64,000 nt of DNA from Sphingomonas paeninsulae (GTDB lineage: Bacteria; Pseudomonadota; Alphaproteobacteria; Sphingomonadales; Sphingomonadaceae). The stretch spans positions 1,054,001 to 1,118,000 of the forward strand of contig NZ_CP032829.1 of assembly GCF_003660165.1 (NCBI RefSeq), written 5' to 3'. A program made the position numbers and the translations under genes. The notes under the pieces were generated by a model. The model was given only the letters and a program-made list of their open reading frames with translations, had not been told where the DNA came from and searched no databases. Below are positions 1,921 to 4,365 of this stretch, in pieces (position 1 is the stretch's first letter; every line of letters begins with the position of its first letter).

Positions 1921-2648
1921 GCCTTATCGTATTTCCCGCAATCGACCTGAAGGGTGGGCAAGTCGTCCGTCTGGCTGAAGGTGATATGGATCGCGCAACC
2001 GTTTACGGTGACGATCCGGTCGCGCAGGCAATGATCTTTGCCAATCAGGGCGCGGGTTATCTTCATGTGGTCGATCTCGATGGCGCATTTGCCGGGCATG
2101 GCGTCAACGCCGACGCGGTAGCGCGGATAGTCGCGGCATTTCCGGGCCATGTTCAGGTCGGTGGCGGCATTCGGACGATGGCTTCTATCGAGGCATGGTT
2201 CGCGGCGGGTGTATCGCGGGTGATTATCGGAACCGCCGCGCTGACCAACCCGCAACTGGTGCGCGATGCGGCAAAGGCATTTCCGGGCGGCGTCGTCGTC
2301 GGAGTCGATGCGCGCGACGGATTTATCGCGACGCAGGGTTGGGCCGATGTTTCCGATGTCGAGGTGATCGATATGGCGCGGCGGTTTGAGGATGCGGGGG
2401 TCGCGGCGTTGCTGTTCACCGATGTTGGGCGCGACGGGATGTTGAAGGGGTGCAACGTTCAGGCGACGGTCGATCTGGCGCGGGCGACCAACATTCCGGT
2501 TATCGCGAGCGGCGGTGTCGCGGGGATCGCGGATATCCGGATGCTGGCGATCCACGCGAAGGATGGCATCGAGGGCGTTATCACCGGGCGGGCTCTTTAT
2601 GACGGGCGGCTCGACCTGAAGGTGGCGCTCGAACTGGCTGCGCTTTGA
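1917..2648 (+). CDS. hisA: Phosphoribosylformimino-5-aminoimidazole carboxamide ribotide isomerase
   Basis: A TIM-barrel isomerase of histidine biosynthesis. The N terminus ([18 protein letters not shown]) carries the first catalytic Asp in PAIDL, and a second half-barrel Asp sits in FTDVGRDG. I place the start at the TTG of 1917 rather than the in-frame GTG at 1908. A GGAG sits 8 bases upstream of the TTG, the resulting N terminus begins directly at strand beta-1, and the TTG forms a TTGA overlap with the hisH stop exactly like the hisA/hisF junction. With the GTG start the protein would be three residues longer. About 243 residues. Confidence 0.95.
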
Positions 2649-3418
2649 GCGTTCGGGTCCGCGTTATCCCCTGCCTCGACGTCGCCAATGGGCGGGTCGT
2701 GAAGGGCGTGAACTTTGTCGATCTGCGGGATGCTGGCGATCCGGTCGAGGTTGCGCGCGCCTATGACGCGGCGGGGGCGGACGAGCTTTGCTTTCTGGAT
2801 ATCGGAGCGAGCCATGAAGGGCGCGACACGATCATCGATGTCGTGCGCCGGACCGCCGAAGTTTGCTTCATGCCGCTGACCGTCGGCGGCGGAGTGCGGA
2901 GTGCGGACGATGCGCGGGCGTTGCTGCTGGCGGGGGCGGACAAAGTAGCGGTCAATTCTGCGGCGGTCGCGCGGCCTGAACTGGTGGCCGATATCGCCGA
3001 GCGGTTTGGGAGCCAGTGCGTTGTCGCGTCGGTCGATGCCCGGCGGGTCGGTGACGGCTGGGAAGTCTTCACGCATGGCGGGCGCAAGGCAACGGGGCTG
3101 AATGCTATCGAGCACGCGATCAGGCTGGCCGAACTGGGCGCGGGTGAATTGCTGGTGACTTCGATGGACCGCGACGGGACGCGCGATGGTTATGACCTGG
3201 AACTGACCCGGACGATTGCCGATGCCGTCGCGGTTCCGGTGATTGCCAGCGGTGGCGTCGGGTCGGTGGATCATTTGGTGCAAGGGGTGTCGAGAGGCCA
3301 CGCGAGTGCGGTTCTTGCCGCGTCGATATTTCATTTCGGCGACGTAACGATTGCCGAGGCGCGCCGTGCGCTGGGAAATGCCGGGTTTCCGGTTCGGCAC
3401 TGTCCCGAAACGGCATAG
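2645..3418 (+). CDS. hisF: Imidazole glycerol phosphate synthase, cyclase subunit
   Basis: The 257-residue TIM barrel condenses PRFAR with ammonia from HisH to form imidazole glycerol phosphate and AICAR. The two catalytic aspartates are Asp12 ([15 protein letters not shown]) and Asp131 (VASVDARRV). Phosphate-binding loops ([14 protein letters not shown]) are intact. The start codon is a TTG whose TTGA overlaps the hisA stop, so translation is probably coupled. It follows hisA, and the next gene is a PEP-CTERM microprotein before hisE. Confidence 0.97.
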
Positions 3419-3471: not shown

Positions 3472-3627
3472 ATGCTCCGCGCGGTTTCCTTTCTGACAAT
3501 ATTTTGCGTCGCCAGCCCCGCTTTGGCGTTTGGCAGCGTTGAGATCCCCGAACCGGGCGAATTCGGCCTGTTCGCGCTGGGTGTCGTCGGCTTGATAATC
3601 GGCCGTCACGTCAGTCGCCGTCCCTAG
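3472..3627 (+). CDS. PEP-CTERM microprotein (51 aa): signal peptide fused almost directly to the sorting tail
   Basis: This short reading frame encodes 51 residues: a signal peptide (MLRAVSFLTIFCVASPALA), a linker of a few residues (FGSVEI), the PEP motif (PEPGEFGLFALG), a hydrophobic helix (VVGLIIG) and a basic tail (RHVSRRP). That is the canonical layout of exosortase substrates, which are secreted and processed at the inner membrane. What is unusual is that there is essentially no mature domain. It sits between hisF and hisE on the same strand, with gaps of 53 and 40 bp. Function unknown; the tail implies that an exosortase is encoded elsewhere in the genome. Confidence 0.8.
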   Translation: MLRAVSFLTIFCVASPALAFGSVEIPEPGEFGLFALGVVGLIIGRHVSRRP

Positions 3628-3667: not shown

Positions 3668-3985
3668 GTGACCGACACACTGACACTATTATCCCGCACC
3701 ATCGCCGCGCGCCGCGATGCCGATCCGGCGACGTCCTATGTGGCGAAACTTCACGCCGGTGGCCCACCGCTGATCGCACGCAAGCTGGGTGAGGAAGCTG
3801 TCGAAACGGTCGTTGCCGCCCTGACCGGCGATGCGAAGGATCTGACCGGGGAAGCCGCCGACCTGATCTTTCACCTGCTCGTTTTGCTCGATGCCAGGGG
3901 CGTCGCGTTTGCCGACGTCACGGCCGAGCTGGACCGGCGCGAAGGCATGTCGGGAATTGCCGAAAAAGCTGCACGAAAGACCTGA
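3668..3985 (+). CDS. hisE: Phosphoribosyl-ATP pyrophosphatase
   Basis: The 105-residue all-alpha NTP pyrophosphohydrolase (MazG-like fold) carries out the second step of histidine synthesis, hydrolysing PR-ATP to PR-AMP. Typical motifs: SYVAKLHAGGPPLIARKLGEEAVETVVAAL, whose EEAVE and downstream GEAADLIFHLLVLL (EAAD) blocks provide the Mg-binding acidic residues. GTG start. It is a free-standing HisE not fused to HisI. It lies in the his cluster, followed 2 bp later by the HIT-family gene. Confidence 0.95.
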   Translation: MTDTLTLLSRTIAARRDADPATSYVAKLHAGGPPLIARKLGEEAVETVVAALTGDAKDLTGEAADLIFHLLVLLDARGVAFADVTAELDRREGMSGIAEKAARKT

Positions 3986-3987
3986 GT

Positions 3988-4365
3988 ATGCCCGTCGACG
4001 CCACCCTGCCCTATGACGACCAGAACATTTTCGCGAAAATCCTGCGCGGCGAGATTCCTTCGAAAACGGTCTTCGAAAATGAATTCGCACTGGCGTTCAA
4101 CGACATAGCGCCACAGGCTCCGACACACATATTGGTGATCCCAAAGGGAGCCTATGTGTCGTGGGACGATTTTTCCGCCCGCGCGCCCGACGCCGAAATC
4201 CTGGGGTTCGTTCGGGCCGTCGGAGAAGTCGCGCGAGCCGCCGGTCTGGTGACTTCGGGATATCGACTGCTGGCGAACACCGGGCTGGATTCACATCAGG
4301 AAGTTCCCCACCTTCATGTCCATATTTTTGCGGGCCAACCGCTTGGGCCGATGCTCATTCGTTAG
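3988..4365 (+). CDS. hinT: HIT-family (HinT-like) purine nucleotide hydrolase
   Basis: The 125-residue protein carries the histidine-triad signature HLHVHIF near its C terminus and the HIT N-terminal blocks IFAKILRGEIPSKTVFENEFALAF and HILVIPKGAY. HinT-type proteins hydrolyse purine nucleoside phosphoramidates, including aminoacyl-AMP adducts, in the cytoplasm. The start lies 2 bp after the hisE stop, so it is probably the last gene of the his transcript, an arrangement seen in other alphaproteobacteria. No anomalies. Confidence 0.92.
   Translation: MPVDATLPYDDQNIFAKILRGEIPSKTVFENEFALAFNDIAPQAPTHILVIPKGAYVSWDDFSARAPDAEILGFVRAVGEVARAAGLVTSGYRLLANTGLDSHQEVPHLHVHIFAGQPLGPMLIR

Follow-up and report, generated by a model that had tools for sequence, protein, structure and literature searches.

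The interval between hisF and hisE

In the window, by which we mean the whole 64,000-nucleotide stretch of Sphingomonas paeninsulae DNA analysed here, a small gene lies between hisF and hisE, and a HIT-family gene follows hisE (Table 1). Its open reading frame runs from ATG to TAG and encodes 51 aa plus the stop, in the order MLRAVSFLTIFCVASPALA-FGSVEI-PEP-GEFGLFALGVVGLIIGR-HVSRRP, which bears out the layout proposed in the initial annotation, namely a signal peptide, then six residues leading to PEP, followed by a helix and a basic tail. The ALA-type signal-peptidase site and the hydrophobic stretch were called by eye and by regular expression, and the signal-peptide columns A-x-P-A-x-A are kept across the family alignment. 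The PEP motif, helix and C-terminal basic cluster follow one another in PEP-CTERM order; the protein scores just over the cut-off of NCBIfam TIGR02595 (PEP-CTERM; 16.5 bits, cut-off 16) and just under that of Pfam PF07589 (18.9 bits, cut-off 20.7). The missed Pfam cut-off, along with the drift of the PEP box described below, would suit a small membrane protein unrelated to sorting in which a PEP-like turn arose by chance, but the association with long exosortases and the PEP-CTERM-type promoters of relatives make this highly improbable.

Table 1. Features of the hisF-hisE region, in window coordinates
Feature	Position	Strand	Basis or remark
hisF	2645..3418	+	TTG start as listed; profile 332.5 bits, cut-off 294.55
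Degenerate class II palindrome	3402..3417	+	GTCCCGAAACGGCATA against GTYCCRNNNYGGGACR; overlaps the hisF end, 54 nt before ATG
Small PEP-CTERM-like gene	3472..3627	+	Sequence, profile scores, conservation between hisF and hisE, purifying selection
Signal peptide, residues 1-19 (..ASPALA)	3472..3528	+	Cleavage site predicted by motif only
Six-residue linker FGSVEI, the whole "mature domain" before PEP	3529..3546	+	Sequence
PEP box, P26 E27 P28	3547..3555	+	Sequence
Hydrophobic helix, residues 29-44; its end is the GxxGxxxG portion of the hallmark	3556..3603	+	Sequence
GxxGxxxGR motif (G37 to R45), where family conservation peaks	3580..3606	+	Family alignment
Basic tail RHVSRRP	3604..3624	+	Sequence
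hisE	3668..3985	+	Profile 137.5 bits, cut-off 120
HIT-family (histidine triad) gene	3988..4365	+	Next neighbour, kept in relatives too

To avoid query bias, relatives were sampled through hisE, which was found in 146 of 149 evenly drawn family genomes, and all frames of the DNA upstream of hisE were searched with a 20-seed profile in which several seeds share genomes. Across the 146 loci, hisE was recovered in 145, hisF adjoined it in 128 and the small gene lay upstream in 64, with hisF confirmed adjacent in 60 of these 64, all falling among the 128. In 58 of the 60 loci with the gene, hisF and hisE stand 185 to 656 nt apart, as against -17 to 108 nt for 53 of the 68 without it; a few of these values are wrong because some alignments overran the hisF stop. 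A conserved tiny PEP-CTERM-like gene between hisF and hisE is thereby confirmed: the same small gene occurs in sphingomonad relatives, and the placement that had seemed unexpected is itself conserved.

Searches with the window protein gave matches at E<=1 in six of seven genomes of the genus, the best match being his-linked in all six, and at E<=0.01 in 155 of 397 genomes of the family, a list that also includes ordinary longer PEP-CTERM proteins. A search of 387 genomes of the class gave strong full-length matches in family f1 only (three genomes, with 85.2, 79.2 and 71.2 bits), the best match besides these reaching 42.5 bits in a 288-aa frame; the class-wide loci (L233-L261) are his-linked in only two cases, both from the family. 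Among 80 named loci, the gene stands beside hisF in 15, with hisE also seen in 14 of these, and the 15 belong to Altererythrobacter, Pontixanthobacter, Pelagerythrobacter, Parerythrobacter, Allopontixanthobacter and Sphingomonadaceae/Sphingomonadales MAGs. A literature search found no paper pairing "PEP-CTERM" with "hisF".

Judged by its substitution pattern, the small gene is a protein gene under purifying selection: pN/pS is below 1 in 41 of 41 close pairs, and dN/dS (NG86), where defined, ranges from 0.16 to 0.57, the value between the window copy and G006 being 0.17. A spurious open reading frame was considered as well and ruled out by conservation together with pN/pS.

Exosortases and their co-occurrence with the gene

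The search for an exosortase gene suggested in the initial annotation found two in the same genome, XrtA and XrtV. Neither of the findings named there as refuting, a gene not conserved in relatives or a genome devoid of exosortases, was thus obtained. The XrtA (335 bits) carries a fused EpsI and adjoins the XrtA-associated femAB, glycosyltransferase and amidotransferase, while XrtV lies elsewhere, beside PEPxxWA substrates. Nine PEP-CTERM matches exceed the cut-off in this genome; eight are PEPxxWA-like, and the sole exception is the gene described here. Its product has the tripartite tail in common with the PEPxxWA-CTERM/XrtV system of the same genome (NF035944, NF035943) but lacks the W after PEP and hence the PEPxxWA signature (PEPGEFGLF), and NF035944 is not among its NCBIfam matches. 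This missing motif and the co-occurrence pattern led us to drop an XrtV substrate as the leading idea.

Among the matches listed, an exosortase is present in at least 128 of the 149 family genomes. Co-occurrence was tabulated for the 128 genomes in which hisF adjoins hisE, an open frame of >=440 aa ("long") serving as a proxy for the XrtA-like type, with XrtA and XrtV typed as such in the genome of the window only. On that basis, and again among the matches listed, the gene is present in 57 of 85 genomes with a long exosortase, in just 2 of 27 with short-only exosortases and in 1 of 16 with none (Fisher test, kinship not removed: long versus short, p=2.6e-8; any versus none, p=3.4e-4). The gene thus appears to track the long, XrtA-like exosortase type rather than short-only or none. 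Among independent pairs on a HisF tree, only six supported ones differ in exosortase type, a number too small to give a test any power, and the gene differs in 0.9 of them on average. It is absent from 28 of the 85 long-exosortase genomes with hisF adjacent, and therefore is not needed for XrtA. One genome carries the gene with no exosortase among the matches listed (G072, locus L085; 200 contigs, 97% complete).

To call the protein the only XrtA substrate in its genome would be too strong, as another likely one is encoded there (L050; VPAP tail, 14.1 bits, below the cut-off). A Ser/Gly-rich protein of this kind, starting MSVxMALAKL or similar, recurs in XrtA-type genomes (L050, L222, L229-L231, L369), with a VPAP tail where the end is seen and scores below or near the profile cut-offs; it is likely another XrtA substrate. 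In two of 30 genomes searched at E<=0.2 (G005, G062), the his-linked gene is the only PEP-CTERM match. A literature search found nothing joining PEP-CTERM, exosortase and Sphingomonas, and in the available portions of the literature linking exosortase with Sphingomonadales the term "PEP-CTERM" was absent.

Helix, PEP box and linker across the family

Across 64 aligned copies, the glycines of profile columns 36, 39 and 43 are held in 58, 63 and 62 copies, and the arginine of column 44 in 61; exact GxxxGR occurs in 59 copies, as against exact PEP in 38. The PEP box is replaced by PEG in eight copies, by AEP in four and by DAP, PQP and TEP in two each, and further rows have no box, including three copies without a recognisable PEP (L063, L069, L156). 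GxxxGR was found in none of 29 other PEP-CTERM-like tails (nine from the same genome and 20 from 20 other genomes). In this alignment, the hallmark of the family is the helix motif more than PEP.

All 26 genomes whose copies have lost the exact PEP contain an exosortase match, and this loss in exosortase-keeping lineages makes a decoy or regulator possible, in which the helix of the stub would occupy XrtA without normal cutting and tune sorting or exopolysaccharide output. The retention of GxxxGR over PEP, the PEG substitutions and the copies without a recognisable box would all agree with such a role, as would the fact that five PEG genomes (G013, G018, G068, G102, G103) keep PEP in another substrate. 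Against it, VPAP tails occur widely in those genomes, which suggests that XrtA might recognise its substrates without a strict need for PEP, and PEP is intact in the window copy; we regard a decoy or regulator as possible but doubtful.

The spacer between the motif-predicted signal-peptidase site and the PEP box has a median of six residues and is <=10 residues long in 43 of 59 copies, in agreement with the claim of the initial annotation that almost no cargo is present. Its companion statement, that known exosortase substrates have substantial mature domains, was too strong. Exosortase substrates are described as usually longer and diverse in the available part of PMC1569441; two very short PEP-CTERM proteins away from hisF, L210 (G066) and L247 (G660), likewise consist of a signal peptide and a tail with little between them, their tails lacking GxxxGR. 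Certain same-locus relatives, moreover, do have linkers of 47-71 residues: G077, G015, G150 and G027, which are Ser/Gly-rich, and G090, which differs. These five copies would be expected if the gene were a shrunken, decaying remnant of a longer PEP-CTERM gene with no function of its own, and the 25 changes in gene presence that parsimony counts on a quickly built HisF tree (128 rows, of which 12 are truncated) point the same way; such a remnant is nevertheless unlikely in view of the purifying selection noted above and the conserved promoter boxes of relatives.

The short linker would also suit a released signal, in which cuts at both ends free a signalling peptide of 6-10 residues. This we consider quite improbable, because the linker is poorly conserved (columns 19-23, at 1.3-1.9 bits, rank near the bottom for conservation within the protein) and family members differ in its length, from 1 to 71 residues. 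The drift of PEP beside a near-invariant GxxxGR fits a role of the membrane tail better than that of a released peptide; since selection seems to act on the tail and not on the linker, a mini-substrate or ligand is favoured over a released signal.

Upstream elements and the proposed role

Sigma-54 boxes scoring >=9 of 11 lie upstream of 22 of the 64 copies, against 4.8 in shuffles and 2 on the reverse strand, and boxes scoring >=10 of 11 upstream of 15, against 0.52 and 0. Under a strict count, restricted to the intergenic stretch where known and to boxes that have both GG and GC at their positions, 21 of 64 relatives have a box, and in 19 of these 21 a PrsR-type GTCG..TTACA motif stands 64-66 nt upstream. 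This spacing matches the arrangement given in the available part of PMC1569441, where motif 1 ends in TTTACA, the spacer to the sigma-54 motif is 62.8 nt (s.d. 10.6), and the sigma-54 motif precedes 99 of 167 proteobacterial PEP-CTERM genes. The genome of the window encodes PrsR (670.6 bits, cut-off 502.6). In six relatives (L058, L064, L073, L086, L100, L116), 10-13 nt separate the end of the sigma-54 box from the ATG of the his-linked gene; the transcripts would presumably start at or beside the start codon, by a start-site rule that we take to hold, and are apparently leaderless.

A second class of upstream element, the palindrome GTYCCRNNNYGGGAC, was found in 13 of 55 intergenic stretches, where shuffles give 0.002. 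The 55 divide into 13 with the palindrome, 20 with sigma-54 only and 22 with neither, the palindrome never occurring together with sigma-54. It is not described in the available part of PMC1569441. When TTG was also required 15 nt further on, a search of 12 genomes yielded 11 sites, of which 10 belong to the his locus. Upstream of the window copy, the search shows no sigma-54 box and thus no PrsR/sigma-54 motif pair, and neither a sigma-70 promoter nor an intrinsic terminator was found for the gene; a half-palindrome is present, its left arm GTCCCGAAACGG surviving at 3402-3413, and similar left arms occur in relatives of the genus. For the window gene, the argument for regulation is one of kinship only. 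The palindrome was also considered as an RNA hairpin, for which folding gave no support (z=0.22 in the window, z=-1.07 in L083).

Where the gene lies, its conservation, the selection on it, its helix hallmark, its co-occurrence with long exosortases and the XrtA-regulon promoters of relatives are all read from sequence. On these grounds we consider the gene to encode probably a cargo-poor protein of the XrtA system, a mini-substrate of XrtA whose tail is the working part. In the full explanation, which we hold to be somewhat likely, the gene would belong to the XrtA/PEP-CTERM exopolysaccharide system, would have come to rest between hisF and hisE, and would be inherited vertically and regulated separately. 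From what is known of the family, its product would be exported by Sec and lose its signal peptide, leaving a membrane-anchored stub of ~30 residues whose GxxGxxxGR helix may dock within XrtA or close to it; where a lineage has kept PEP, XrtA would probably cut this mini-substrate and leave a peptide of ~6-10 residues. The selected part would be the tail and not the cargo, and its most likely role would be to serve the exosortase or the exopolysaccharide machinery as a ligand or priming substrate. Counting against this explanation are the lack of a sigma-54 box and the presence of only half a palindrome at the window copy, the 26 of 64 copies in which the exact PEP is gone, the absence of the gene from the 28 long-exosortase genomes and its occurrence in G072. 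A wider notion, which we put forward tentatively, is that of cargo-free exosortase partners, in which the tail would be the whole functional protein and act as a dedicated XrtA modulator that sphingomonads keep among their his genes, PEP being shed in some lineages while the helix that would touch XrtA is held, and expression being turned on along with the exopolysaccharide operon under sigma-54/PrsR or palindrome control.

The closest known system is PEP-CTERM/EpsH-XrtA (Haft et al. 2006), with which, as far as the available part of PMC1569441 describes it, the family shares a motif-predicted signal peptide, PEP, helix and basic tail and an exosortase in the genome and, in about a third of relatives, the sigma-54 box and upstream motif at the published spacing. 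The his-linked family differs in having almost no mature domain, a fixed place in the his cluster, GxxGxxxGR in the helix and an exact PEP in only 38 of 64 copies. PepA of Aquincola tertiaricarbonis is likewise the product of a PEP-CTERM gene that is RpoN-dependent, its transcription depending on RpoN1 according to the available part of PMC9850573; pepA, however, belongs to another genus and lies upstream of prsT, and the window copy lacks a sigma-54 box. The available part of PMC12188702, on cyanoexosortase B, contains nothing on substrate size.

A place-conserved, near-pure sorting tail of 50-60 residues would offer a minimal substrate or ligand with which to test XrtA recognition, and so tiny a protein would allow the need for the PEP box to be tested. 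To our knowledge, substrate recognition by exosortases is largely untested.

With a looser box and overlapping palindromic matches merged, 35 distinct palindrome sites were found in 11 of 12 genomes, with none in the genome of the window. As the raw genome-wide count of 46 in the 12 genomes is little above the 38 of a reversed-pattern control, only the locations are telling. By coordinate comparison, seven sites lie before the his-linked gene, eight near xrtA and 12 elsewhere; the other eight precede PEP-CTERM or Ser/Gly-rich genes, four of these being assigned from frame lengths only. The sites near xrtA stand before the exopolysaccharide operon of the XrtA system. The linked palindrome suggests that, in these bacteria, this operon has a second regulatory input. 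These eight sites (L353-L360, from Erythrobacter-type genomes and present in 8 of the 11 site-bearing genomes) are 9.5-9.6 kb away from xrtA, at the beginning of the exopolysaccharide export gene, whose identity was profile-checked for one of them (L358), and five of the eight, L358 included, have a neighbouring chain-length/decarboxylase open reading frame recognised by eye.
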